Of a DNA stretch of 64,000 nucleotides, positions 1-60,884 are shown piece after piece (positions within the stretch are counted from its first letter, which is position 1; each line of letters opens with the position of its first letter). The notes under the pieces were generated by a model. It searched no databases, had not been told where the DNA came from, and saw only the letters and a program-made list of their open reading frames with translations. The translations under genes and the position numbers were made by a program. Source of the DNA: a virus; IMG/VR virus record IMGVR_UViG_3300034682_000176, positions 1 through 64,000 of that record, one strand, 5' to 3'.

Positions 1-116
1 GTTTTTCAACGTACAAGTAATCTTTTTTACCCCGGTGTGACCTTCCAAATCTAATGGCGGAAGGTTCCCGGTCCCCGTGAATTTTTCTCTCAACACTGTT
101 GTTTGTAGGAGCGCAC
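1..116. other. Intergenic leader before the giant fibre gene
   Basis: No gene seen. A short dyad (ACCTTCC near 41-47 with GGAAGGTT near 59-66) may be the terminator of a gene to the left of the window. GTAGGAG at 106-112 is the ribosome binding site of the next gene. Confidence 0.4.
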
Positions 117-3100
117 ATGAAACTGAATCTGTTTGGCAATATGCCAGTCATCCTGCCCCGCGACCCCCAGTCCGCGATGGAGGCAGCCACCAAGAACTAC
201 GTGGACCGCACCATGTCCACCCACGCGGAGAACGTTGCGCTGCACTTGACGACAGCGCAAAACGCGTGGCTGGATGCGATCACAGTGACCGCTGAAGAAG
301 TCAACGCGATCGCTGGTCTGTCCGGTAACGTGGTGGAACAACTGGCCCTGAAGCTGGACAAGGCCGGCGGTACCATGACCGGTGCTCTGCACCTGTCGGG
401 TGACCCGGTCGACCCCACGCAAGCAGCCACCAAGAACTACGTCGATACCAAAGACGCACTGAAGGTGAACAAGGCTGGCGACAGCATGACGGGGTTCCTG
501 ACCCTGCACGCCAACCCCGAAACCAACCTGCAGGCTGTCCCCAAGCAGTACGTGGATGCGACGGTGACCGCCCACACCAGCAACACCGACCTGCATGTGC
601 CTGCCAACCAGGTGGATTTCCTGAAGACCGTGACCATCACGGGTGCTGAAGCCAACAGCCTGCTGGGTGTCACTGGCAATGTCCAGACCCAACTGGGTAC
701 CAAGCTGGACAAGGCCGGCGGCACGCTGACTGGTCCTCTGGTGCTGCCTGGCGCTCCCACTGAGAACCTGCAAGCTGCAACCAAGCAGTACGTGGACCAA
801 GAAGCTGCCAAGAAGCTGAACCTGACTGGCGGTACGCTGACCGGCCCTCTGGTGCTGTCCGGCGCTCCCGTCGCTGATGGCCAAGCCGCCAACAAGCAGT
901 ATGTGGACAGCAGCCTGCAAACGCACGCTGCTGACGAAGCCCTGCACTTGACCGCTGCGCAAAACACGCTGCTCGATGGTCTGACCGTCACCCACACCGA
1001 CATCAACCGCCTGAGCGGTGTAACTGGTAACGTCCAAGCCCAGCTGGATACCAAGTTCGACAAGGCCGGTGGCGCCGTCAGTGGTGACATCACCTTGGCT
1101 GATGGCAAGGCTGTGTTCGTCAGCAAGGCACCTGCCACTGACAGCGAACTGGTCAACAAGGCCTACGTGGACTTCCTGATCCAAGGTCAGGAATGGCGCG
1201 ACCCTGTCACCGGCATCAACCTGGTGTCGACTACCACTTCTGCTCCTCCTGCCGAGCCTGTCGAGTCTGACATCTACATCGTGGGTGCCGCAGCGACCGG
1301 GGCTTGGGTTGGTAAGGAAGGCTACGCCGCTGCATTCGTCAATGGTGTCTGGGTGTTCCTGCAAGAGCGTGCTGTGCAAGTGGGTGACCGCTTCGGTGTG
1401 GCGCTGCGCTCCGAAACCGCTGTGACCGCTGAGCTGACCGCTCACGCCAAGACCTTGGTGACCGTGACCAACGCCACCGTGGGTGCCATGGCTTTCACCT
1501 CGGACCCCAACAGCGCTGGCTCCACCACCCTGGTGTTCGACGAAGACGCTCCCGACTTCGGCGTGAGCTACTCGTTCAACGACGCTGGCAACTGGGTCCC
1601 CACCAACACCTCGGTGAACCTGACCGCTGGCGACGGCTTGAAGCTGCGTGGCTCCATGCTGAACGTCAACGTTGGCAAGGGTCTGGGTCTCAACGGTGAC
1701 AACCAATTGTTCGTGGACGTTGTTCCTGACTTGGCACTGAAGACCCAAAACGAACTGCTGACGCTGATCACCGACAACACAACTTTGGTGCAGACTGGCG
1801 GTGTGCTGGCCATGAATCCTGGCGCTGTTGCCGCGATCAACAACGCTGTGACCAAGACCGGCACCAGCGACGTCACTGGCACCATCGCTGTTCAAGCCGG
1901 CGGCAAGGTGACTTTGGCTGACGCTCCTGTCAACCCAGCTGACGCTACCAACAAGCAGTACGTCGACGGCAAGGCAAGCGGTCTGCAAACTTCGGTGGAA
2001 GGTCTGGACGGTCGCCTGCAAGCGCTGGAAACCGATCCTGTCACCAAGCAGTACGTTGAGCAAGAAGACGCCAAGAAGTTGGACAAGGCCGGCGGCACGC
2101 TGACTGGTCCTCTGCAACTGTCTGGCGATCCTGCCAGCGCACTGCATGCAACACCCAAGCAGTACGTCGACGCTACGCTGAAGGCTCACGCTGACAGCAC
2201 CGAACTGCACCTGACTCCTGATCAGAACACGCTGCTCGACGGCCTGACCGTGTCTCACACGGAACTGAACCGCGTTGCCGGTGCTACCTCCAACATCCAA
2301 GACCAACTGAACGACCGTCTGCCTCTGGGCGGCGGTACCATGAGTGGTCCGATCACCCTGTCCGGCGCTCCTTTGGCTGCTGCCCACGCTGCCAACAAGG
2401 GTTACGTGGATGGCGAAGTGGGTCAGAAGGTTGCCAAGGCTGGCGACACCATGACCGGCTTCCTGGTTCTGCACGCCGATCCTTCGGCTGCTATGCATCC
2501 TGCTACCAAGCAGTATGCTGACTCGAACCTGGCTGCACACGTCAACAGCGATCTGGTCCACATGACCCCTGACCAAAACGCGTTCCTGGACGCTGTGACG
2601 GTCACCGCTGATGAAGTCAACCAACTGGCTGGTGTCACGGTCAACGTTCAAGACACCCTCAACGCCAAGCTGGACAAGGCCGGCGGCACCATGACTGGTG
2701 TTCTGACTCTGTCGGGTGCACCTGCTGCGGATCTGCACGCTGCCACCAAGCAGTACGTGGATTCCAACACCACCAACAAGCTGCCTCTGGCCGGTGGCAC
2801 TATGACGGGTTCTCTGATCCTGTCTGGCGCTCCTGTGACCGATGCGGAAGCTGCTACCAAGAAGTACGTCGATGACGCACTGAGCGGTGCCGGTGGCGAT
2901 CTGACGACCCAGATCAACAACCGCGTGGCCAAGGCTGGCGACACGATGACCGGGTTCCTGACCCTGCATTCGGCGCCTACCCAAGACCTGCATGCCGCGA
3001 CCAAGAAGTTCGTGGACGACTCGGTCAGCGCTCTGAGCGCTTCCGTGGATGCCGACCTGCAAGTGACCGACCAAAACGTCGCTGCCCTGCGCACCGATGT

Positions 3101-4466
3101 GGACGGCCTGCTGGCTGACCCTGTGACCAAGAACTACGTCGACACCCAAGACGCAGCTCGTGTGTCCAAGTCTGGTGCCACCATGACTGGTTTCCTGACC
3201 CTGCACAGCGACCCTCAGTCGCCAATGCACGCGGTGCCCAAGCAGTACGTCGACGCCGTGGCGCAAGGTCTGAAGACCAAGCCTGCTGTGCGTCTGGCTA
3301 CGACTGAAAACCTGGTCGGTACCTACAGCAACGGCACAGCCGGTGTGAACGCAACGCTGACCGCTTCGGTCAACGGCGCGCTGGTGGCTGACGGTGTGAC
3401 ACCCATGGTGGGTGACCGTGTGCTGCTGCGCATGCAGACCAACAAGCTGGAAAACGGTGACTACGTTGTTCAGCAAGTCGGTAACGCCGCCACCCCCTTC
3501 GTGCTCAAGCGCGTGGTCACAGCTGACGAATCGGCTGAAATCCCTGGTGCGTACTTCTACACCTACGACGGTGTGACCCTCAAGGGTACCGGGTGGGCGC
3601 TGGTGGTGGATAACCCAGTGACCTTCGGTATCGGTGTCGACGACATCATGGTCAACCAGTTCTCGGGCCAAGGCTCGCTGATCGCTGGTGACGGTATGAC
3701 GCTGACCGGCAACACGCTGGACATCATCGCTGCCGACCCCACCCGCATCACTGTCAATGCTGACAGCATCGACCTGACACCTACCGGTATCACTCCTGGT
3801 GCCTACACCAAGGTGACCGTGGACGGTTATGGCCGTGTGTTGACTGCGACCAACCCCACCACGCTGGCGGGCTACGGCATCAACGACGCTCAACCCAAGA
3901 GCACGCTGCTGACCAACCTGGCAGGTGTGTCCACCAAGGGCATTCTGGTGCTGGACGCTGGTGGCCAAGCCACGACCCGTCAGCTGGAAGTGCTCGGTAT
4001 CGGTCTGTCCGTGTCCAACAAGGACGGCGGCACCGGTGACATCACCATCACCTCCAACGCAACCGACGCTGCCACCGCTGGTACGGTGGTTGCCCGCGAC
4101 GCCAGCGGCAACTTCTCCGCCAACACCATCACCGCCGCTCTGAGCGGTAACGCTTCCAGCGCTACGGTGCTCAAGGACAGCCGCAACTTCTCCATCACTG
4201 GTGATGTGACTGCTGACCCTCAGGCATTCAACGGCGCCGGCAACGTGGTGCTGCCTACTCAGCTGACCGCCACTGGTGTGACTGCAGGTACCTACACCAA
4301 GGTGACTGTGGACGCCAAGGGCCGTGTGAGCCTGGGTGAGAACCCCACGACTGTGGCTGGCTACGGCATCATCGATGCGGCCACCATTGACTACGTGAAC
4401 TCCAAGATTGCGGACCTGGAAGCCCGTATGGATGCCCTGCATCTGTATGTGACCAGCCGCATGTAA
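117..4466 (+). CDS. Giant repetitive tail-fibre protein
   Basis: A 1449-residue protein, starting at the ATG that follows GTAGGAG. Most of it is a repeated fibre module: a link such as AATKQYVD or VPKQYVD, then KLDKAGGTMTGxLxLxGxP, with some units carrying a longer insert built on HLTxxQNxxLDxxTVT and GVTxNVQ. About a dozen QYVD/NYVD links are visible up to residue ~1050. The C-terminal third has two copies of a YTKVTVDxxGRV...NPTTxAGYGIxDA motif common in phage fibres, and the last 30 residues look like a short coiled coil. I infer an extended trimeric side or tail fibre. The same QYVD link and GYGI motif occur at the N-termini of the four kelch fibre proteins at 8-17 kb, so they probably share an attachment logic. 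No receptor domain was recognised. Confidence 0.85.
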   Translation: MKLNLFGNMPVILPRDPQSAMEAATKNYVDRTMSTHAENVALHLTTAQNAWLDAITVTAEEVNAIAGLSGNVVEQLALKLDKAGGTMTGALHLSGDPVDPTQAATKNYVDTKDALKVNKAGDSMTGFLTLHANPETNLQAVPKQYVDATVTAHTSNTDLHVPANQVDFLKTVTITGAEANSLLGVTGNVQTQLGTKLDKAGGTLTGPLVLPGAPTENLQAATKQYVDQEAAKKLNLTGGTLTGPLVLSGAPVADGQAANKQYVDSSLQTHAADEALHLTAAQNTLLDGLTVTHTDINRLSGVTGNVQAQLDTKFDKAGGAVSGDITLADGKAVFVSKAPATDSELVNKAYVDFLIQGQEWRDPVTGINLVSTTTSAPPAEPVESDIYIVGAAATGAWVGKEGYAAAFVNGVWVFLQERAVQVGDRFGVALRSETAVTAELTAHAKTLVTVTNATVGAMAFTSDPNSAGSTTLVFDEDAPDFGVSYSFNDAGNWVPTNTSVNLTAGDGLKLRGSMLNVNVGKGLGLNGDNQLFVDVVPDLALKTQNELLTLITDNTTLVQTGGVLAMNPGAVAAINNAVTKTGTSDVTGTIAVQAGGKVTLADAPVNPADATNKQYVDGKASGLQTSVEGLDGRLQALETDPVTKQYVEQEDAKKLDKAGGTLTGPLQLSGDPASALHATPKQYVDATLKAHADSTELHLTPDQNTLLDGLTVSHTELNRVAGATSNIQDQLNDRLPLGGGTMSGPITLSGAPLAAAHAANKGYVDGEVGQKVAKAGDTMTGFLVLHADPSAAMHPATKQYADSNLAAHVNSDLVHMTPDQNAFLDAVTVTADEVNQLAGVTVNVQDTLNAKLDKAGGTMTGVLTLSGAPAADLHAATKQYVDSNTTNKLPLAGGTMTGSLILSGAPVTDAEAATKKYVDDALSGAGGDLTTQINNRVAKAGDTMTGFLTLHSAPTQDLHAATKKFVDDSVSALSASVDADLQVTDQNVAALRTDVDGLLADPVTKNYVDTQDAARVSKSGATMTGFLTLHSDPQSPMHAVPKQYVDAVAQGLKTKPAVRLATTENLVGTYSNGTAGVNATLTASVNGALVADGVTPMVGDRVLLRMQTNKLENGDYVVQQVGNAATPFVLKRVVTADESAEIPGAYFYTYDGVTLKGTGWALVVDNPVTFGIGVDDIMVNQFSGQGSLIAGDGMTLTGNTLDIIAADPTRITVNADSIDLTPTGITPGAYTKVTVDGYGRVLTATNPTTLAGYGINDAQPKSTLLTNLAGVSTKGILVLDAGGQATTRQLEVLGIGLSVSNKDGGTGDITITSNATDAATAGTVVARDASGNFSANTITAALSGNASSATVLKDSRNFSITGDVTADPQAFNGAGNVVLPTQLTATGVTAGTYTKVTVDAKGRVSLGENPTTVAGYGIIDAATIDYVNSKIADLEARMDALHLYVTSRM
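130..3260 (+). repeat. Coding repeats of the fibre shaft
   Basis: Imperfect direct repeats inside the giant fibre gene. AAGCAGTACGTGGA/CGTCGA and AAGGCCGGCGGTACCATGAC-type segments recur roughly every 90-250 bases. They encode the QYVD and GGTMTG turns, so this is protein-level repetition that also offers a substrate for slippage or recombination. Confidence 0.7.
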
Positions 4467-40849: not shown

Positions 40850-43435
40850 TCACACGACCAAACTCAGGTATCCCGAGATATTGATCTTTTCAGGTTTGCC
40901 GCCAGTGACCACACGGATCACGTTTTGCACAAACCGGTACTGGAGCAAGTCCAGCTCGATCGTTGCATTGCCCAGGTGAGGGTGGATTTCCACGATCAGA
41001 TCTGGCAAGTTGGCGCGGATGGGGTCCAACAAGTACAAGTTCTTGTAGCTTTGGTCGATCAACTGCAAAATTGCAGTGTCGTCGTAAGGGTTGGTGTACA
41101 CGCTCGCTGGAAGCACCCCTTGCTTGAGGTGCACCAAGATCGTCGAGATCAGCGGAGAGTACAGCACGTGGCGCGCAGCAATCGCATTGAACTCATCAAT
41201 CGGGGGTTCAGGGAACACCAGGTCGTACAAGTCTGAGATGCGTTGGTTGGTTTGGATGTTCTTGCAGTAGATGGGGTAGCTGTCCACGCCTGTCAGTTGC
41301 TTGATGGCGATGAACGACTCCCGCAACACGTAAGACTGTCCATTCTTGGGGTTGGTGATGCGTGTGGTATTGTCATTTTCCGAATACCGCACCGTGTTGC
41401 GGTCACGCAGCTTGCCGTCGACAAAGACACTCATGACCTTGTCGTCACGGATGTCGTAGTGCTTGTTGCGGGTGAGGGTGCCGTTGTTGACAAACCCACG
41501 CAGCTCCAGCTGGTTGATCTTGCTCACGTCCAGGGTGAACCCAGACATACGGATATGCAGGTGTTGCGTTTCTTTGGAGTAGTCCAAATAGCGCTTGGTG
41601 CAGATCGACACGCTGGGGAACTTCATGAACACATCCAGCCCTTCAGTCAGGCGGTTGCCATTCATAAAGAACTCGATGGTTTCGTAAGGCACATCCAAGG
41701 TGGTATTGACCACGCCGTTGCCCCGGTCTTCAGGTTGGGTCAGCACAAACTCCAGGTTCCCCGAAGTCAGTGGCAGCTCCAGGTCATAGACCCGTGGGTG
41801 GTGCAAGCAGACCATCTTGATCTTCTTGCCTTCGTTTTCCGTGATCACAAACGTGCTGTCGGTGCGCTGGCATTTGTCAGGCGTGTTGGTGATATCCACC
41901 CACTGTGAAGTGCGTACAGCACCATCGAAGTACGCCGACAAGATCCGGCACTCCAAACCGTCGGTTGGGATGACTGCGTCATGGGTATACAGCGCACCGT
42001 AGTTCAATGGGATCGATCCTGCCATGAACTCCACAAATGCCACACTGGCATCGGTGCAGGTGTACAGCGGGCCGTTGGACGCCAGCATGCGCAGGTACTT
42101 ACCATTAGCGTCATACTCAAACGCCAACGAGTCTTCCTGGTACAGCTCGGGCACTTCTACAGTCAACGCCCCGTTGGTGGTTACGGGAGAGTTGGCGTAG
42201 TAGTACGTCATGCCGTTGTAGCCGATGGCGTCGATCGCCAGCTGTGGGGTGATCTTACCGATCCCAGGTGCCGAAGCACACTGGAAGTAAGCACTGTTCT
42301 CCAACTGTTCTGCACGAAAGAAGTCCACCGTGTAGTTCATATTAGAGATGACGTTCTTTTGCACGTCAAATGGCAGTTTGTACAGCTCATGCAGCTTCAT
42401 GCCGTTGTACACCAACTGGCGCTCACGCCCGGACTTTCGGACGTACAACACCACGGTTTTGTCGGCCTGGGCACCACCGACTTTGTGTGACAAAGTCTGT
42501 GCGGTGTTGTTGACGAAGATGGAGTTCAGACTGAAGTCTTTGTCCGTGACGTTGCGCATCACGTAGTCTTGGTGGCGGTACAGCAGCAGTCCGCGGTTCA
42601 AGCCCGTGTTCTTTTGCGCCACGTAGACCTCTGCATCGTCTTGGTACTCGATGGTGTCGCGTTCCTTGGGTCGGTACAGCAAGTACTTCACGTGGTTGTC
42701 TTTGATCGACGCAAAGGTTCGCAGACCTTGCAGATCAAACACATCGCGTTTGATCACCGATTGGTCGTACACCACTTCCACGAAACTTTGGTCTGGGATG
42801 TTGAGTGTGACCTTGTCGACAAAGTAGCCGTCCGCATACACGAACACATCCCCGCCGTTGGCGACCAGGTTGTTGATGCGTGTTTGCAGCTGAGCCTTTT
42901 CCAAGTTGTTACCCACCATGAGTCCAAAGCACTCAATGCCTTTGCGCACAGGCAGGTTGTTGAACTCCGAAGACTGGAAGTACGCGTTGCTGTAGACGTT
43001 CAGGTACTGGAAGCTGGCCACGTCAAAGTGCTGCTGCAAGTAGCTGGTAACTTCAATGGCCACCAACAACGAACTCTCGTCCGTGTAGCTGTAGTAGACG
43101 TTCTGGCGTGGGAACACCACCCCGTCGTCGTTGTAGATCTTGGCGATGAACTTGCGCTGGTTCATGTCATCGCTCATCTTCACCCACTGGTCTCGCAGCC
43201 ATTGTTTCTTTTGCCCTTGCAGGTTCAGAAACTCAGGGAACATGTTCCCCATGGTGAAGACGTGAAAGTAACTGGTGGTGTTGGGTAGTTTCTTGGACAC
43301 CCCATACACCGTGATTTCTCGGATGGCCGGGAACGTCTTTTTATTCACGCGTGCCATTCGGAAGCTGTACTGGCGATCCTGGGCAGGCGCGCAGTAGATG
43401 TGTTCCAAGGCAAAGCGTTGGGATTGAAGCAGCAT
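40850..43435 (-). CDS. Large probable virion structural protein
   Basis: An 861-residue protein; AAGGACG lies before the ATG at 43435. It is rich in beta-forming and aromatic residues with many short repeats of strand-turn type and no catalytic or membrane motif. The size, composition and position beside the tail sheath suggest a baseplate or tail component. It is the second gene of a two-gene minus-strand unit with the 310-residue gene upstream (13 bases apart). Assignment to a particular virion part is not possible from sequence. Confidence 0.6.
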   Translation of the reverse strand: MLLQSQRFALEHIYCAPAQDRQYSFRMARVNKKTFPAIREITVYGVSKKLPNTTSYFHVFTMGNMFPEFLNLQGQKKQWLRDQWVKMSDDMNQRKFIAKIYNDDGVVFPRQNVYYSYTDESSLLVAIEVTSYLQQHFDVASFQYLNVYSNAYFQSSEFNNLPVRKGIECFGLMVGNNLEKAQLQTRINNLVANGGDVFVYADGYFVDKVTLNIPDQSFVEVVYDQSVIKRDVFDLQGLRTFASIKDNHVKYLLYRPKERDTIEYQDDAEVYVAQKNTGLNRGLLLYRHQDYVMRNVTDKDFSLNSIFVNNTAQTLSHKVGGAQADKTVVLYVRKSGRERQLVYNGMKLHELYKLPFDVQKNVISNMNYTVDFFRAEQLENSAYFQCASAPGIGKITPQLAIDAIGYNGMTYYYANSPVTTNGALTVEVPELYQEDSLAFEYDANGKYLRMLASNGPLYTCTDASVAFVEFMAGSIPLNYGALYTHDAVIPTDGLECRILSAYFDGAVRTSQWVDITNTPDKCQRTDSTFVITENEGKKIKMVCLHHPRVYDLELPLTSGNLEFVLTQPEDRGNGVVNTTLDVPYETIEFFMNGNRLTEGLDVFMKFPSVSICTKRYLDYSKETQHLHIRMSGFTLDVSKINQLELRGFVNNGTLTRNKHYDIRDDKVMSVFVDGKLRDRNTVRYSENDNTTRITNPKNGQSYVLRESFIAIKQLTGVDSYPIYCKNIQTNQRISDLYDLVFPEPPIDEFNAIAARHVLYSPLISTILVHLKQGVLPASVYTNPYDDTAILQLIDQSYKNLYLLDPIRANLPDLIVEIHPHLGNATIELDLLQYRFVQNVIRVVTGGKPEKINISGYLSLVV

Positions 43436-44381: not shown

Positions 44382-44467
44382 GGCCAATACCCCTTTAAGT
44401 ATTCTATGAATTGATTCAAAGCATACCTTTTGCTCAATCTTTTTTCCTCTACCTAGGAGTGCCCGCC

Positions 44468-46585
44468 ATGAATTTGGATATCGACAGCGCAGCCCCAATG
44501 GTCAACGATCTCGGTACCCGAGATGTGTCTGGCCGGACTGTCACTCAACCCGTGCTGATGTTTCCTCAGCACTTGCCGAAGTTTTACATCTTCGGTGAAA
44601 CAGGCCCCATGGGTCCGCAATACGTCGATCTGGCGCGCACAACGCTGACCGAACTGTACGGCGACAAGACCTTTGACGTGAAGTCCAAGTACTTCACCCA
44701 CCAAACGCCCTACCTGCAAGCGGCTGCCCGTGCTGGCAACAACTGCGTGGTGCACCGCCTGCCTGGCCGCAACGCCAAGGACAAGGCCAACGTCGGTTTC
44801 TACCTGGACATCCTGCCCACAATCGTGACGCTGTATGCCAAGAACGCCGATGGTTCGCTGCAGTTCGACGAGCAAAACAACCCCAAACCTCTGCTGGACA
44901 ACAACGACCAGCCTGTGACCATGGCCGGCTATAAGGTCTGCTATGTGCTCGACCACGTCTCCGTGCCGCTGGGTGAATACCAGCCTGGCCTGCTGACCCA
45001 GCGCGCTGGCATCCAGGTCAACGGTCAGACCCAGTCGACCCAGTACCCCCTGTTTGAAATGTCGGCAGCCTACGCTGGCGAATTCGCCAAGTCGCTGGGC
45101 TCGCGCATGTACGCTGCGCTCAAGACCGACATCGTGCCCTTCCCCGACAACTTCTTGGCCGACGCCAAGATGTTCCCCTACTACTTCCAGCTGATGAAGC
45201 TGTCGCCTTCGGTGGCCGGCAAGATCGATCCCGTGCTCAACGGCTTCGGTGCCCAGTACAGCCGCTTCGTGCTGCAAGAAGAAGGCCGCGATCCGGGCTC
45301 TGACGCCGTGGTCGATCTGACCACTGTGCTGCAAGACCAATACATCGATCCTGCCTCGGGTGCCAAGACTGGCCTGGGCAACGTGAAGATGTACGCCGAC
45401 AACATCGCCCTCGTGAGCAAGATGCTCTACGAAGCCGAAATGGTGGTGGCTGACCAACACCGTGACAGCGAAATCAACAACGCCGAGCAGAACTACTTCG
45501 CGTTGAACATCCTGGGCTTCACCAGCTCCAACGGTTCTCCCTACCAAGCCATCAAGGTGGTGGACGTGGTCGGCAGCACTCGCCTGACCAAGAACTCCAC
45601 GCACTTCATGGACGGCGCCAGCGATGGTGAGATCGATGCAGACCTGTTGGACCAGCTGTTCATCGACGACATGGAGAACTACCAGAACACGCTGACCGAG
45701 TACCACGACCTGGTCAAGCACCCCGAATCGATCATCTACGACTCGGGCTTTGGTCTGGCTGCCAAGCGCGCAGCTCCCAAGTTCATCTCCAAGCGCAAAG
45801 ACACGTTCGTCGTGCTCTCTACGTTTGCTCACAACGCACCGGCCGGCACCTTGGCTGACCAAACCTCGGTCGGCATCGCCCTGAAGACCATGCTGGAGCT
45901 GTACAGCGAATCGGCATACTTCGGCACCAAGACCATGCGTGGTCTGGTCATGGGTGGCTCGGGTGAGCTGACCAACTCCCTGTACAAGGGTCGTGTCTCC
46001 ACAGCCTACGAAGTGCTGTGTATGGCTGCCGACTACATGGGTGCCGCCAACGGCGCCTGGAAGAACGGCAAGTGCTTCGACAAGGCTCCCAACAACATCC
46101 TCAAGTACCTCAAGAACCTGGACGTCGTCTGGGTGCCCGCTTCGGTGCGCAAGGTCCTGTGGGGTGTCGGCGTCAACTTCGCGTTGCGCTACTCCACAGC
46201 AGGTGGTCCTGGCAACGGTGGCCAGAACTTCTTCCCTGCGCTGCAAACCGTCTACGACGATGACACTTCGGTGCTCAACAACTTCTTCAACGCCATGGGT
46301 ATCTGCTACCTGAACAAGGTGGCACATGCGGCCTGGCGTGAATTCAGCGGCGACATCGAGTTCAGCGCAGCCCAGCTGGAAGAGCGTGTCAACACGTTCG
46401 TCACTGAAAATACCAAGGACAAGTTCGACGGCAAACTGGTGGTGGTACCAGCCTGCACGGTCACCAGCTTCGACGCCCAACGTGGCTACAGCTGGACCCT
46501 GCCGACCAAGCTGTACGGCCGCACCAGCCGCACCGTCATGAACACCTACGCCGAGGCACATCAACTTTCCGAACTGGATGCTTAA
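44468..46585 (+). CDS. Contractile tail sheath protein
   Basis: A 705-residue protein starting MNLDIDSAAP; CTAGGAG precedes the ATG. phiKZ-type sheaths are close to this length. The N-terminal region (about 1-130) carries LPKFYIFGETGPMGPQYVDLA and a strand/helix order typical of sheath domain I. The C-terminal part (VSTAYEVLCMAADYMG ... VKVLWGVGVNFALRYS ... KVAHAAWREFSGD) matches the conserved sheath core that packs on the tube. Codon use is strongly biased, as expected for an abundant protein. A tube gene lies downstream at 47910, separated by an unrelated gene. Confidence 0.8.
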   Translation: MNLDIDSAAPMVNDLGTRDVSGRTVTQPVLMFPQHLPKFYIFGETGPMGPQYVDLARTTLTELYGDKTFDVKSKYFTHQTPYLQAAARAGNNCVVHRLPGRNAKDKANVGFYLDILPTIVTLYAKNADGSLQFDEQNNPKPLLDNNDQPVTMAGYKVCYVLDHVSVPLGEYQPGLLTQRAGIQVNGQTQSTQYPLFEMSAAYAGEFAKSLGSRMYAALKTDIVPFPDNFLADAKMFPYYFQLMKLSPSVAGKIDPVLNGFGAQYSRFVLQEEGRDPGSDAVVDLTTVLQDQYIDPASGAKTGLGNVKMYADNIALVSKMLYEAEMVVADQHRDSEINNAEQNYFALNILGFTSSNGSPYQAIKVVDVVGSTRLTKNSTHFMDGASDGEIDADLLDQLFIDDMENYQNTLTEYHDLVKHPESIIYDSGFGLAAKRAAPKFISKRKDTFVVLSTFAHNAPAGTLADQTSVGIALKTMLELYSESAYFGTKTMRGLVMGGSGELTNSLYKGRVSTAYEVLCMAADYMGAANGAWKNGKCFDKAPNNILKYLKNLDVVWVPASVRKVLWGVGVNFALRYSTAGGPGNGGQNFFPALQTVYDDDTSVLNNFFNAMGICYLNKVAHAAWREFSGDIEFSAAQLEERVNTFVTENTKDKFDGKLVVVPACTVTSFDAQRGYSWTLPTKLYGRTSRTVMNTYAEAHQLSELDA

Positions 46586-48886: not shown

Positions 48887-50008
48887 ATGAAAAAGGTCTA
48901 CCAGTCTCTGTTGGCGGCAACTTGCAAGTTCTTTGGTTTGCCTGCACCGCGTGGTAACGAGCCAGTGTGCGTTGACCAAAAACGTGACCCCCAGAACGGA
49001 CCTTTCACCACCACAAACCCACCTGTAGAGCCTGACAGCGAGTCTCAAAAGGCTGAGAAAAAGCCTTGGCTGATCAAGCTGCCTATTGGAGCGGCTATCA
49101 AAGACTCTCCCAAAGACCGAGCCTGGATGCAAGGGCAAGAGCTTTTGCCCGATGAGATCACCGATCTGATGTTCAACGATCTGGACAAGCTCAAGGAAGT
49201 GCCTTTGGTGGCATGCCTGCCGTCTAGCCTCAAACTCCCGCAACTGAACGGCACGTTGCCTTATGCCGATCTGGAGCTGCGGCTGGACGGCAAGATCAAG
49301 TGTCCGACCGAAGGCAAGGAGTATGAGATCTACACCTTGCTGATGGTCATTGATCCCAACTGCTCGGAATACCCCAGCAACATCAGCTGTCTCTTTTTCT
49401 ATGACCTTGGCACCAGTGTCAAGTTCTGCCCATCGACATATGTCAGCGGTGGTATCATGACTCCCATGCACTTTTGTTTGGGTTTGGATGAAGACCACCG
49501 CAGCTATCGGACCAAGACAATCCAGCACCCCATGGAAGAAGACACGTACCATGTGGTGCTGAGTGTGTTGGACCACGCCCCAACGTGGTACGACAAGGAG
49601 TCGTTTGTTCGTTACCTGAATGAAGACAACAGCTTCACCAAACGCCTTCGTGAAGGCACGTTGTTTGGTGAAGCAAGCCAACCTTCCTTGAAAAACTACC
49701 CGAACCCTTGTGACCGGGAGGCACGGATCTTTGAAGTAGATCCTTCAAACGTCGGGTTTGTGGTAAAAGACATCTGGACCATCGAAGACACACCCATTGG
49801 TTATGCCGGAAATGTTCACCCATCTGTGACTATGGTCATGGGTAAAATCAAACCCACGGGACCCATGGCTGATGTGGTGCGTGCGCATCTGGAGAACCCA
49901 GCTCCACGCACCCATTTCGGTATGCGAGGCTTTATCACCCCGGGCGACAAACGCCGTAACATCGGCAACAAGATCTACACCATCGTGACGTTTGACCTGA
50001 TGCATTGA
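48887..50008 (+). CDS. Catalytically dead paralogue of the prohead protease
   Basis: A 373-residue protein, GGAGC before the ATG. Its C-terminal ~125 residues align with the protease encoded just downstream, including MGKIKPTGP (318-326) against MGKVKPTGP. Each predicted catalytic position is changed: GEASQP has Gln265 for the His of GELGHP-type motifs, VGFVVKDIW has Val292 for the second His, and HFGMRGF has Gly345 for the nucleophilic Ser. The N-terminal 250 residues are extra. I infer a structural, scaffolding or regulatory partner of the active protease. Confidence 0.65.
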   Translation: MKKVYQSLLAATCKFFGLPAPRGNEPVCVDQKRDPQNGPFTTTNPPVEPDSESQKAEKKPWLIKLPIGAAIKDSPKDRAWMQGQELLPDEITDLMFNDLDKLKEVPLVACLPSSLKLPQLNGTLPYADLELRLDGKIKCPTEGKEYEIYTLLMVIDPNCSEYPSNISCLFFYDLGTSVKFCPSTYVSGGIMTPMHFCLGLDEDHRSYRTKTIQHPMEEDTYHVVLSVLDHAPTWYDKESFVRYLNEDNSFTKRLREGTLFGEASQPSLKNYPNPCDREARIFEVDPSNVGFVVKDIWTIEDTPIGYAGNVHPSVTMVMGKIKPTGPMADVVRAHLENPAPRTHFGMRGFITPGDKRRNIGNKIYTIVTFDLMH

Positions 50009-50106: not shown

Positions 50107-50883
50107 ATGGACGTTGTGAAGTTTACAGAAACCATTTTCAGCAACAAAAACAAAAAGGGTGTTCTCCAAGCCGATGGCGACGGTTACTTCACCTTTGTGA
50201 TGGGTGGGCTCAACACCTACAACAGCGCCGGTGAGTACTATGTCGCTGAAGGTGTGGTGCCGATGTTTGAAGCGTCGACGCACTTCATGCGCCGCATCCG
50301 CAACGGTGCGCTGTACGCAGAGCTGGGTCACCCCAAGCGCCAGCCAGGCATGGGTCTGGAAGACTTCTACCGCCGCATCGTCACCATCGACGAAAACAAC
50401 ATCTGTGCGCACATCTCCGAGCTGTGGCTGGACTTTGACTTCGGCAAGAACAATCCCGATCTGGGTAATCCTGACTTCGTGGCCATCATGGGTAAGGTCA
50501 AGCCCACCGGTCCCAAGGCAGCCAGTCTGGAGCAGTCGCTCAGCAACCCCAAGCAAAACACCGCGTTCTCCATCCGTGGTCTGACCGAGAACAACGAGCG
50601 CAACGGCCGCACCGAGCGTCGTCTGACCGAGATCATCACGTTTGACAACGTGCCCGAGCCCGGCATCGCTGCGGCTTGCAAAGCCTACAACCCAGGCCTG
50701 GAAGGTTTCCAGATCGTGGAGTCGTTGGACGCTTACGTCGACAAGGACATCCTGCGTCAGACCATCAGCTCCTTGCAAAAGGAAAGCGGTGCCATGGCCA
50801 CCGAATCCAACCGTGCCCTGTACAACCAGATCCTGGCCTCTCTGAAGCCTAACCAAGCCACACAGCGCGCTCGTAGCTGGTAA
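50107..50883 (+). CDS. Prohead protease (T4 gp21-like)
   Basis: A 258-residue protein. The motifs of the herpes-assemblin/gp21 serine protease fold are present: GALYAELGHP (His75), NICAHISELWLDFDF (His102) and TAFSIRGLT (Ser155), separated by MGKVKPTGP (128-136). Such enzymes mature the capsid by cutting scaffold and head proteins inside the prohead. TTGGGAG precedes the ATG. The last ~60 residues are a flexible helical tail that may be removed on activation. The upstream gene is an inactive relative. The gene is monocistronic and closed by a hairpin. Confidence 0.75.
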   Translation: MDVVKFTETIFSNKNKKGVLQADGDGYFTFVMGGLNTYNSAGEYYVAEGVVPMFEASTHFMRRIRNGALYAELGHPKRQPGMGLEDFYRRIVTIDENNICAHISELWLDFDFGKNNPDLGNPDFVAIMGKVKPTGPKAASLEQSLSNPKQNTAFSIRGLTENNERNGRTERRLTEIITFDNVPEPGIAAACKAYNPGLEGFQIVESLDAYVDKDILRQTISSLQKESGAMATESNRALYNQILASLKPNQATQRARSW

Positions 50884-54605: not shown

Positions 54606-56750
54606 TTAGGCGTACATCGCCGGGTTGAATTGATCCTTCACCAGTTTTTCCTTGTAGAGCATGGGACCCAGGGTTTCCAGCACCAGCCGATGTTGCAGTG
54701 TCACATCCAGCACAATGCGTTCAATGTCCACCACTTGCAGCAAGATGTCAGGGATACCATAGCCGGCCACGTAGTCTGCGTTCAGGTACAGGGTCGGTAG
54801 GTTCTTTTTGTTGTTGCGCAGACACCAAGCTTTCATGCGCTCCCGCATGGCGGGGTCAGGGAAGCTTTCCACCCAGTTGACCAAAGCGGTCTTGGACGTG
54901 ACCTTGGTAGGCAGCTTGAGCACTCCATAGGGAGGCTCAGGGAACTCACCGTAGTTAGGACCAAACACTTCGTTCCAGAACAAGTGGCGTCCATACGGAG
55001 AGCGTGCCGCTTCCTGGGAGTACGCCGACTCGTTGTTGATCTTAGAACGCTTCAAGAACACTGGCTCGCCCTTAGAGATCGAACCGATGATCTTGTGCTC
55101 CAGATCAGTGACGCGTTTGAGGAACTTGGTGAACACCAGCTTCTTATTGCCAGCGACGGTCTCCAAGACTTCTTGCATCATCTCGTTGCCGTCGTCAATA
55201 ACGAACTTGGGAACTGTCGAGTTCTTCAGGTGCACACCCTTGCGCTCGATTTCTTCCTTGGTGAGGACCGTGCCTTCTTGCAGCACCGTGTACGCATAGT
55301 AGTGCTTACTGACTTCAGCCGGGGAGTGCGCGAGCCACAGGTACTCGTTTTTCATCCCCATCTTATCCAGCAGCTCTTCATCGATGTTCAGGTTGCGCGA
55401 AAGAATCCGCAGCAAGTGCACGATGGCTTGCGATGCAAAGAAACTGATCAACCCACCCAAAGCAATGGTCTTAGCGTCGATGCGGAATTCACCCCCGCAG
55501 TACCACTTGACCCATTCGTCCATGGTAAAGCAGGTAGAATCGGTGTCCGAGAGCACCACCACACGCCGGCGCATGTTGCGTAGGCGGAAGCTGTTGACCG
55601 GCATGATCGGTGTCATGAAAAAGCAGTTGAAGAACTCCTTGGCTTCCAACAAAGCTTTCTCGGTCTTGAGTGCGGTCAGGTAGATGGATTCGGGAATCAA
55701 CGTGTCCTTCAAGACGGGTTCGTTGTAGTCCTTGCCCTTGCCCTTGAGCTCGTAGAAGAAGATGTGGTGGATGTAGTACAAGAAGTTCTCATCCAGCGCA
55801 TACAGCTTGCTGGCCACGTCATCGATGTGTTCAGTGGCTTCGACCTTCGAGATCAGACCATCCATCAGCTTGCGCATGAACTCAGGGTTGAACTGACGCA
55901 GGTGGTACAAGTCACCGGTGTAGCAGATGGCGGCGCGCTGGGCTGGGCTCAGGCGCTGCAGGTAAGGGATGATGAACTTGTCATAGTACGCGTTGTCATG
56001 GAAGTACAGGTCCGAGGAGTACTTGAGGACTTTGACGGTTTCTTCTACGGTTGGCAGATGCAAACCAAACTTGGCGCAGACACGCTCGATCTCATGGGGG
56101 TTGGTGTAGGTGGTGATGTAGACCAAGTTGTTGAGCACGTCTTGGCCACGGGGGTAGTAACGATTGCCTGCAACGATGCGTTCGTTGTTGGCATTGGACA
56201 TGGAGGTCATCGTCCGGGTCAGGGACGTGAGGGTGGAGTGGTTCGATGGGTTGTGCAGGATACAAGCTGCCAGACCAAACGCCCCAGACAACGAGTTGGC
56301 GTAGATCTTGAGCAAGTTCTGCTCGTTGTTCTTGTGGTCAGCCAGCAAGATGTTGCCAGCTGCTTTGGCTTTTTGGCCTTCCTTTTTGGCCACCTTGCGC
56401 TTGGTCACGGCCATGAACACGAACTCAGAGAGCATCGATTTGTCTTGTGCCCGCGACGCATAGGTCGTGAAGGTAGGTGTCAGGATGTTGCCTTGCTTCA
56501 GATTGGTATTGATGTAGTTGTACACTGTCGTGTCCTTGACAGTGCGGTCACCATTTTCAATCCGCTCAAAGCACTTCATTGTGCGGTCTTTGAAGTGGGT
56601 CTTGAGCAGTTCCTTGACCTTCTCATCAGCCACTTCCTTAGAGACACCCTTGCGTGCTTGGAAGTACTGACTCAGTTGTTCGGCATATGCACGCACTGGG
56701 TTCAGTGGTGTCTTATAGTGAGTCTTGTCTTTGAAGAAGACTTCTTGCAT
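54606..56750 (-). CDS. Family B DNA polymerase, C-terminal part
   Basis: A 714-residue protein starting MQEVFFKDKT with AAAAAGGAG upstream. Motif B (LLKIYANSLSGAFG, 146-159) and motif C (VVLSDTDSTCF, 398-408) of family B polymerases are clear. Motif A (DxxSLYP) and the 3'-5' exonuclease motifs are not visible, so the N-terminal half is probably encoded elsewhere. The gap between B and C is ~240 residues, several times the usual length. The rest forms a long thumb-like region. It is expected to replicate the phage genome with the DnaB-like helicase. It diverges from the gene at 56859. Confidence 0.8.
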   Translation of the reverse strand: MQEVFFKDKTHYKTPLNPVRAYAEQLSQYFQARKGVSKEVADEKVKELLKTHFKDRTMKCFERIENGDRTVKDTTVYNYINTNLKQGNILTPTFTTYASRAQDKSMLSEFVFMAVTKRKVAKKEGQKAKAAGNILLADHKNNEQNLLKIYANSLSGAFGLAACILHNPSNHSTLTSLTRTMTSMSNANNERIVAGNRYYPRGQDVLNNLVYITTYTNPHEIERVCAKFGLHLPTVEETVKVLKYSSDLYFHDNAYYDKFIIPYLQRLSPAQRAAICYTGDLYHLRQFNPEFMRKLMDGLISKVEATEHIDDVASKLYALDENFLYYIHHIFFYELKGKGKDYNEPVLKDTLIPESIYLTALKTEKALLEAKEFFNCFFMTPIMPVNSFRLRNMRRRVVVLSDTDSTCFTMDEWVKWYCGGEFRIDAKTIALGGLISFFASQAIVHLLRILSRNLNIDEELLDKMGMKNEYLWLAHSPAEVSKHYYAYTVLQEGTVLTKEEIERKGVHLKNSTVPKFVIDDGNEMMQEVLETVAGNKKLVFTKFLKRVTDLEHKIIGSISKGEPVFLKRSKINNESAYSQEAARSPYGRHLFWNEVFGPNYGEFPEPPYGVLKLPTKVTSKTALVNWVESFPDPAMRERMKAWCLRNNKKNLPTLYLNADYVAGYGIPDILLQVVDIERIVLDVTLQHRLVLETLGPMLYKEKLVKDQFNPAMYA

Positions 56751-56858
56751 TTTGGCACTCCTTTTTTGCACTGGTCTCGCACTGTATGAAGCGACAGACA
56801 CGAAAAATACTCTGATCTCTTTATATCCCTTTGTTTCCCTAGCTAAGGAGCACACGCC

Positions 56859-58665: not shown

Positions 58666-59571
58666 ATGCAAATCCGTTTCCTCGATCAAAGCGTCTACAC
58701 CTACATCGACAACAACTTGCCGATGGGTATCGGTTACCAGTGCTACTCCGTGTTCCACCTGGCTGAACAGCTGGGTCTGAAGGAGTACGACAAAACGTTT
58801 GTCGATCTGATTTTTCTGCCAGACCTCGTAGAGCCCGATGAGGTGCGAGATCTGTTTATTGAGAAGGTGCAGCGCTTGGCAGCGGAGTGCATCGAGCGCC
58901 ACCACATCAAGCTTGATGAAGACGCCACAGCTACGCTCGATGAACTCAAGGAGATCTTGCACTTTTTGGTGCTGGTGCAAAACCTGGAAGACCCTGAAGT
59001 CATCAGCGCTCGTTTGCATGGCTTGGGTACTCCCCGTGCGATCTTCCTGGACGTGTTGTGTCAAATGACGCATTTGGAGAAGTGGCGTGCCATGGAGCTG
59101 ATCGAAGATGTGAAAGAGCAGTTGATCCTCGCCATGCAACAACTGCTGCAAGACACGGCAGCCGAAACCAAAGAAGCTCCAGACCAAGCGTATAACCTCT
59201 CGGTCGTGGCACTCAAGGAGTTCATGGCAGACGGTCAGTGTTTGGGCTTGACCATGTTTGAGGCAGGCTTTCAACGCTTACAGTGGCAAACACTGACCAA
59301 GCTGATCCCTTTGGATTTGAACAAACACTTCGAGGAGCTTGCCAAGACATCGATCGCCCAGTGTGCCATTGACTTCGTCAGTCTGGCGCTGGTGTGTAAG
59401 GACTCTTACCAGACGCCTTCTTTGTATCTGCAAAAGGTCATGCCGCAGTACATCGACAGCACCGAGACGATCACCCAAATTCACACGGCCGTGATGTCGA
59501 TCTTGGCGGACTATCAAACCACCAAGGAAGTCATGGTCCAGCAACAAAAGGTTCAGGAGCAAAGCTTGTGA
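58666..59571 (+). CDS. Unknown protein coupled to the second beta' fragment
   Basis: A 301-residue helical protein starting MQIRFLDQSV; the ribosome site is weak (AGAGCTC). Two Glu/Leu-rich helical blocks (DLVEPDEVRDLFIEKVQRL, AMELIEDVKEQLILAMQQLL, each given in part) and a Gln-rich C-terminus. Its stop overlaps the start of the beta' fragment by four bases, so it may be a companion subunit of that polymerase; no polymerase motif is visible in it. Confidence 0.5.
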   Translation: MQIRFLDQSVYTYIDNNLPMGIGYQCYSVFHLAEQLGLKEYDKTFVDLIFLPDLVEPDEVRDLFIEKVQRLAAECIERHHIKLDEDATATLDELKEILHFLVLVQNLEDPEVISARLHGLGTPRAIFLDVLCQMTHLEKWRAMELIEDVKEQLILAMQQLLQDTAAETKEAPDQAYNLSVVALKEFMADGQCLGLTMFEAGFQRLQWQTLTKLIPLDLNKHFEELAKTSIAQCAIDFVSLALVCKDSYQTPSLYLQKVMPQYIDSTETITQIHTAVMSILADYQTTKEVMVQQQKVQEQSL

Positions 59572-60884
59572 CGAAAACAGAATACCTCAAGCGCTGTGTG
59601 TTGGCGCTCACCCCCTTGGAGTACCCTTCCTGGTATGTGTACATGCTGGGCATTGCTTTGCCTGCTAAACACAACTGGGAAGAACTCGAACCTCTGTGTC
59701 CTTACCCCCAAGAAGACGGCATGTATTTTGTCGACTTGGAAGGCGAAGAACAAAAGAAGGTCTTGACCAAGATCACCGACACCAAGCCCGGTCAAGCGGT
59801 GTTCAACATCAAGGACATGATCGATGTCGACCATTCGTGGTTGCCAACCATCTCCGGTAACTTCCAGACCAAGCTGGGCAACTTGCTGCTCAACGCGGTA
59901 GCCCTGTACCCTTCGGTCAAAGCCAAGCTGCCGTATGAGAACGGCGCTATCAAGGTCAAGGATCTGGAAGCCAAAATCGCCAAGCTCTTGGAGAGTGACG
60001 ACAAGGCCACCGAACACCAGATCTCGACCTCCGAACAAGAAGCGTGCTTTGACCGACTGTGGTTCTTTACCACCATCTCCAAGCTGATCAACATTGCTGC
60101 CACACCCAAACTGGTGACGCGCGCACCGGGCACCAAAGAGCTGCGCAAGAAGCTGTTGGCCGAGCACAAAGACCAGCTGTCTGATCCCGCCGTGGTGGCA
60201 TCGATCGTTGCCAAACTCGATGAGCATGACAAAGAGTACCTCAAGGATGACCCGGTTGTTGCCATGGGTCTGTCCAAAAAGGAAAACACCGCTCGTAAGA
60301 AATTGCACCAGATGTACGGTGAGACCAACGACTTTGATGCCAAGCTGGGTTCCGACCCTATTCTTGGTAGCATGGACGAAGGTCTGAACACCGACCCGCG
60401 CGATCTGTCCAAGTACATCAACGACTTGCGTTACGCGTCCTACTCCCGTGGTCACTCCACCCAGCTGGCGGGTTACACGTACAAGATCTTGCAGCGTTCG
60501 CTCTCCGGTATGGACATCGTCGATGCCGACTGCAATACGCTCAAGGGCTATGCCCGCTTGATCACCAAACGCAATGTCAACAAGTTGGTGGGTCGCTACG
60601 TCAAACCCAAACCCACTGACAAACAGTGGACCTTGGTGGAAAGCGAAGACCAAGCCGGCAGCTACATGGGTCAAAACCTGACCATGCGCTCGGCCATGTA
60701 CTGCCAGTCGCCCAACAACACGTTGTGCTACCGGTGTCTGGGCGAGACGTTCAAAGGCTCAACCTCAGCCATGACCAACCTGGCAGCTTCCATGTCTGCC
60801 GAGTTCATGACCTTGTTCTTGAAGCGCATGCACACCTCAGGCTTTACCCTGACCACGATCGAGAAGAAAGACCTCATCACCTAA
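59568..60884 (+). CDS. RNA polymerase beta' fragment (short form)
   Basis: A 438-residue protein starting at GTG after CAGGAG. The C-terminal third carries beta' motifs: SYSRGHSTQLAGYTYKIL (the TADSGYLTRRL region), GMDIVDADCNTLKG (the DDCGT region) and MYCQSPNNTLCYRCLG. The four cysteines C322, C379, C387 and C390 match the second zinc site of beta'. It stops just after the start of the bridge/trigger region (LFLKRMHTSGFTLTTI), unlike the longer paralogue at 28486. The N-terminal 280 residues are unrecognised. Two beta' C-terminal pieces imply two polymerases, as in phiKZ-like phages with virion and non-virion enzymes; which one this belongs to is not decided here. Confidence 0.75.
   Translation: MTKTEYLKRCVLALTPLEYPSWYVYMLGIALPAKHNWEELEPLCPYPQEDGMYFVDLEGEEQKKVLTKITDTKPGQAVFNIKDMIDVDHSWLPTISGNFQTKLGNLLLNAVALYPSVKAKLPYENGAIKVKDLEAKIAKLLESDDKATEHQISTSEQEACFDRLWFFTTISKLINIAATPKLVTRAPGTKELRKKLLAEHKDQLSDPAVVASIVAKLDEHDKEYLKDDPVVAMGLSKKENTARKKLHQMYGETNDFDAKLGSDPILGSMDEGLNTDPRDLSKYINDLRYASYSRGHSTQLAGYTYKILQRSLSGMDIVDADCNTLKGYARLITKRNVNKLVGRYVKPKPTDKQWTLVESEDQAGSYMGQNLTMRSAMYCQSPNNTLCYRCLGETFKGSTSAMTNLAASMSAEFMTLFLKRMHTSGFTLTTIEKKDLIT

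Follow-up and report, generated by a model that had tools for sequence, protein, structure and literature searches.

A probable two-chain family B DNA polymerase in a distant, uncultivated phiKZ-type jumbo phage

The window gene and its surroundings

The window, that is the whole stretch of 64,000 nucleotides analysed here, is part of a viral record of 224,810 bases and encodes on its minus strand a real open reading frame of 714 aa that starts with an ATG at 56750 (Table 1). The family PF20286 ('Divergent Family B DNA polymerase') covers this frame entirely, aligning residues 8-702 with positions 2-696 of a 705-position model (E 1.7e-188; 628.6 bits at a cut-off of 25.7), and a match to phrog_2927 ('DNA polymerase') likewise spans its full length (E 6.9e-194, 647 bits). 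The fingers were additionally detected by PF00136 in a Pfam scan (8.3e-7). When the protein was used as a tblastn query, 284 phage records matched, 264 at a coverage of at least 80% and every one at less than 60% identity; these relatives come from phiKZ-type jumbo phages whose hosts include Pseudomonas, Erwinia, Salmonella, Vibrio, Serratia, Aeromonas and Klebsiella. A phmmer search of the PDB with the same protein returned no credible relative.

Table 1. Positions of the polymerase genes, their motifs and two context genes (window numbering unless a record handle is given)
Feature	Position	Strand	Basis
C-terminal subunit (fingers, motif B, motif C, thumb) of a split phiKZ-type family B DNA polymerase, 714 aa	54606..56750	-	PF20286, phrog_2927, AlphaFold2 model against RB69 gp43
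Putative ribosome-binding site AAGGAG	56758..56763	-	7 nt ahead of the ATG; likely, from sequence reading
Fingers R118 and K122	56385..56399	-	Invariant, 17/17 phage and 53/53 IMG/VR rows
Motif B, K148-x3-N152-x3-G156	56283..56309	-	Invariant in both alignments; 78/78 by pattern
Mostly helical insert between motifs B and C, residues ~170-392	55575..56243	-	Model helices H170-194 through H387-392
Motif C, D402-T403-D404	55539..55547	-	Invariant in both alignments; model strand-turn-strand E398-401/E406-408
K482-x-Y484, counterpart of the PolB KKRY motif	55299..55307	-	Invariant; hhalign to the T4 K702-KRY-705 region, weak score
K504-G505 in the 'EIKGV' segment ahead of the thumb	55236..55241	-	Invariant in both alignments
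phiKZ-type tail sheath	44411-46582		PHROG/Pfam match
Multisubunit RNAP beta piece	59568-60881		PHROG/Pfam match
N-terminal half, 584 aa, GTG start	G000:101533-103287 (= L001:949-2703)	+	phrog_262 and phrog_3011 matches

In addition to the tail sheath and the RNAP beta piece, the window encodes an SbcC-like protein and prohead proteases, and the genome is therefore that of a phiKZ-like phage. A small SH3-fold neighbour has been proposed as a possible extra polymerase subunit (PMC7824862); in the present record, the SH3-fold protein (phrog_3235) is found at 134493-134864, 80 kb away and not adjoining the polymerase.

Three further observations concern the surroundings. Two adjacent window genes, 48887-50005 (+) and 50107-50880 (+), both match the prohead protease family phrog_3014, the first in the C-terminal part only, and the pair is possibly a duplicated protease together with its remnant. 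A frame of 649 aa (G000:C1:88445-88597, L258:1051-3000) bears a weak likeness to the nuclear shell protein of OBP (E 0.03) and matched no PHROG or Pfam family. At window positions 90-4466, very long overlapping frames are open on both strands (1450 aa on the minus and 1455 aa on the plus strand), with a GC content of about 60% as compared to about 52% elsewhere.

Motifs and fold of the window protein

Residue conservation in the window protein, hereafter the C-half, was scored in two alignments, one comprising 17 phage homologues and the other 53 metagenome (IMG/VR) rows. Motif B and a motif C with DTD, the pair taken to mark a family B DNA polymerase, are both present, and their invariant residues bear out an earlier note on this DNA, which had called the two motifs clear. 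We take K148, N152 and G156 of motif B to correspond to K560, N564 and G568 of RB69 gp43, D402 and D404 of motif C to correspond to D621 and D623, and the spacing of R118 and K122 to be that of RB69 R482 and K486. The distance between motifs B and C, put at about 240 residues in the same note, amounts to 254 residues here and to 245-275 in 77 relatives, owing to a mostly helical insert between the two motifs. A helical insert at this place has been reported before (PMC7824862).

Motif A (DxxSLYP) is absent from the polypeptide that carries motifs B and C; the pattern D-x4-Y-P occurs ahead of motif B in 0 of 78 C-halves. The window protein also shows no exonuclease motifs, in agreement with the earlier reading that it lacks both parts. 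None of the acidic columns ahead of motif B is invariant in the C-half alignments. The best-conserved acid in this region, D68, is flanked as GDR, and 3 of 53 IMG/VR and 3 of 17 phage relatives lack it.

Modelled alone with AlphaFold2, the window protein reached a mean pLDDT of 91.5 and a pTM of 0.86. By sequence, the C-half aligns weakly with T4 in hhalign (Prob 6.5, E 0.0056). At the level of the model, residues 80-711 superimpose on RB69 gp43 447-896 (Z 12.4, 380 residues, 5.2 A), with no match to the RB69 polymerase ahead of about 434-447, so that the alignment begins only after motif A. A diverged motif A concealed within the window protein, the finding that would have spoken against a split polymerase, was thus sought in the predicted structure, and none was found.

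The partner gene and its distribution

Besides the window gene, a search of the record for the T4-type polymerase family phrog_262 returned G000:102085-102684(+), which falls within a gene for an N-terminal half located outside the window, 44.8 kb from the C-half gene (Table 1). This N-half matches phrog_3011 ('DNA polymerase') both as a frame (E 5.6e-148) and in a search of the record (E 5.4e-124), hence a separate N-terminal subunit of this family is present in the same genome. Its PolB exonuclease domain match lies below the cut-off in a Pfam scan, and PF03104, the exonuclease domain, when searched alone in the phage's own genome, gave 0 matches and missed the N-half. The ExoI (D145/E147), ExoII (W234-N235...D239) and ExoIII (Y368..D372) motifs are invariant across 18 phage and 39 metagenome homologues (N235 nearly so), and they occur on this partner chain only.

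The N-half further carries a motif A, ADLDATSAYPT (D511, Y516, P517), about 75 residues ahead of its C terminus, as part of an invariant block consisting of D509, D511, Y516, P517 and T529 in MVADLDATSAYPTATLVANVSKRT. The earlier note had held that the motif A aspartate must come from another polypeptide and had suggested looking through the remaining genome for a B-family N-terminal half with DxxSLYP; this gene encodes such a half, with a motif of that kind. Compared with T4 gp43 by hhalign, the N-halves align over T4 105-432 (Prob 98.7, E 4.5e-16), with D511-LDATSAYP laid on T4 D408-LTSLYP, equating D511 with Asp408. All 62 intact IMG/VR N-halves hold the pattern D-x-D-x4-Y-P, 69-148 residues ahead of the C terminus, and the motif is near-canonical in Bacillus phage PBS1 (DLSSLYPS) and Yersinia phage phiR1-37 (DLSSMYPS). 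The 18 aligned N-halves proved too diverse for patterns, which were obtained from narrower or different alignments. A single-protein pattern search of viral_contigs yielded 4 loci for the N-half and nothing for the C-half, and a phmmer search of the PDB with the N-half gave only weak matches to the RB69 exonuclease.

These N-half motifs bear directly on the possibility that the C-half is a complete polymerase, with a diverged motif A or an acid of its own such as D68, and that the N-half is nothing but a separate exonuclease subunit. Such an arrangement would accord with the conservation of D68 in 50 of 53 IMG/VR and 14 of 17 phage relatives and with section 3.4.1 of a jumbo-phage review (PMC7824862), which names the exonuclease alone as the separate part. 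D68 is, however, neither universal nor set in a motif A context, the RB69 alignment of the C-half model starts past motif A, and the invariant N-half pattern aligns with T4 motif A and approaches the canonical form in PBS1 and phiR1-37. We therefore rejected this reading as highly improbable and place motif A on the N-half.

Two features of the N-half genes are recorded here in their own right. The N-half of this record (L001:949-2700) contains, at residues ~435-465, a strongly acidic insert (DEMLEDGETDDEEEEESDNPDD) that separates the exonuclease domain from motif A and is absent from the aligned phage homologues. In addition, three genomes have an interruption within the motif A codons of this gene, at one shared place around phrog_3011 position 494: a group I intron in IMG/VR record G007 (L152 2930-3243; RF00028, 65.9 bits), a segment containing an HNH endonuclease in Escherichia phage Goslar (L038/L042), and a stretch of about 430 bases in record G032 (L154/L162).

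More globally, both halves were recovered from 17 of 17 phage genomes searched (phiKZ, OBP, SPN3US, PBS1, phiR1-37 and others), and among 29 large IMG/VR records that contain a C-half, 25 also have the N-half, the other four being of 141-166 kb and probably fragments. The halves are never fused, and their genes are usually separated by 27-48 kb, with PBS1 (15 kb) and phiR1-37 (1.7 kb) as the extremes. Pairwise phage-to-phage distances of the two halves are strongly correlated (r=0.97, Mantel 0/5000), as would also be expected from vertical descent alone.

The conserved boundaries, together with the N-half in all 17 genomes, refute the notion that the window gene is a truncated or decayed polymerase, be it a pseudogene or the product of an assembly break, whose N-terminal half has been lost. 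The absence of motif A and exonuclease, which an ordinary PolB has on one chain, is what such a loss would leave behind; yet homologues of equal length and boundaries exist in the 264 high-coverage phage records, the catalytic residues of the C-half are invariant, a ribosome-binding site precedes its start and the N-half is intact in its own record. We assign this explanation virtually no probability.

In Yersinia phage phiR1-37 (NC_016163, 109897-115622; L023, L046, L049, L050), the C-subunit is split again near PF20286 positions 463-465, so that its polymerase appears to be made of three chains. In this phage, the N-subunit gene is directly followed by a gene for a homing endonuclease.

Assembly of the two chains and known split polymerases

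The models place the seam between the halves around motif A. The N-half model (pLDDT 82) superimposes through residues 8-430 on RB69 1-386 (Z 27.0, 357 residues, 3.4 A), leaving RB69 387-446, including motif A, as the piece that neither chain folds alone in the models. In the same line, residues 431-484 and 507-535 of the isolated N-half model have a pLDDT below 50, even though motif A is invariant; the low values at the motif A segment are consistent with, and no proof of, folding upon assembly. The seam can also be traced in family models: in the Pfam DNA_pol_B model, the PBS1 N-half occupies positions 45-91 and the C-half those from 103 on, while on phrog_262 the N-half covers 18-449 and the best stretch of the C-half 565-839.

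Taken together, the window gene very probably encodes the C-terminal subunit of a phiKZ-type jumbo phage replicative DNA polymerase, a split and divergent member of family B, whose N-subunit is encoded 44.8 kb away and whose two chains most likely associate non-covalently into one site. Gene presence, motif distribution, co-occurrence and fold tiling come from the data, and from these we infer physical assembly and activity. The N-subunit would supply the N-terminal domain, the 3'-5' exonuclease and the initial strand of the palm, on which motif A lies; the C-subunit would add the fingers and motif B, the hairpin of motif C that bears two aspartates, the phiKZ-specific helical insert, the remaining palm and the thumb. 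Most likely binding non-covalently and without splicing, the chains would bring the motif A strand of the N-chain to dock and pair with the motif C hairpin of the C-chain, completing the two-metal polymerase site; the C-chain would bind the incoming nucleotide through its fingers and motif B, and the exonuclease, in cis with the N-subunit, would perform proofreading. A more speculative and rather doubtful extension, drawn from the model, is that the replicase site is deliberately incomplete before assembly: the segment around the motif A aspartate (507-535) would be disordered in the lone N-subunit and fold only on the C-subunit, switching replication on only where the subunits meet, for example inside a phage nucleus.

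Joining of the halves could alternatively be covalent, through split-intein trans-splicing. Split PolBs with inteins are known: the halves of the Nanoarchaeum equitans enzyme are rejoined in this way (PMC4104785), and a split-intein polymerase has been proposed for another jumbo phage, MIJ3 (PMC6892783). In the present case, the splicing domain PF14890 is absent from the whole record, which is possibly incomplete, at E<=10, with control genomes positive; Pfam scans of both halves revealed no intein domain, and the roughly 70 N-half residues past motif A show homology throughout the family rather than forming an intein. With no splicing domain in the record or in either half, we rejected trans-splicing as extremely unlikely and retain the non-covalent association of the two subunits.

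The split arrangement itself has been known for phiKZ-like phages since 2012, and the window case is a further, divergent member. A split-subunit DNA polymerase has been attributed to OBP (Cornelissen et al. 2012, as cited in PMC5694885 and PMC5105663); PMC5694885 reports it for phiKZ-like phages and PMC5105663 likewise for phiKZ, while the split polymerase of SPN3US consists of gp18 and gp44. We recovered the two SPN3US halves as SPN3US_0018 and a match at 41251-42999. PhiKZ has been listed as a divergent PolB cluster (PMC7544198). OBP, SPN3US and phiKZ (PHIKZ050 plus an N-half at 77975-79867) resemble the present phage in having two subunits with an equal division of motifs and both genes in each genome at the typical spacing. 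The difference from phiKZ and SPN3US is one of sequence divergence, with identities of 30-32% for the C-half and 31-33% for the N-half, and the N-half described here differs from phiKZ-like N-halves by the acidic insert, which is about 35 residues long.

Bacillus phage PBS1/AR9 and Yersinia phage phiR1-37 share the split point and the presence of both halves, but differ in their near-canonical N-half motif A (DLSSLYP and DLSSMYP, respectively), in the distances between the genes (15 kb in PBS1, 1.7 kb between the nearest phiR1-37 pieces) and in the additional break of the phiR1-37 C-half. T4 and RB69 gp43 match the two halves taken together in fold and catalytic residues, but are single chains (about 900 aa) whose B-C spacing is short and which lack the helical insert. 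Family B polymerases made of two polypeptides are also found in Methanothermobacter (Kelman 1999) and Nanoarchaeum equitans (Choi 2006), as summarized in PMC4104785; these are archaeal, are credited there with an intein origin and are not close relatives.

The published picture is sharpened by the finding that the separate protein carries motif A besides the exonuclease, as seen in all intact N-halves, whereas PMC7824862 notes the exonuclease only. By sequence search, no phiKZ-type polymerase was found among solved structures, so that a structure of the pair, or an assay, would still add information. Together, this distant, uncultivated member indicates that phiKZ-type phages encode one polymerase active site on two separate chains.
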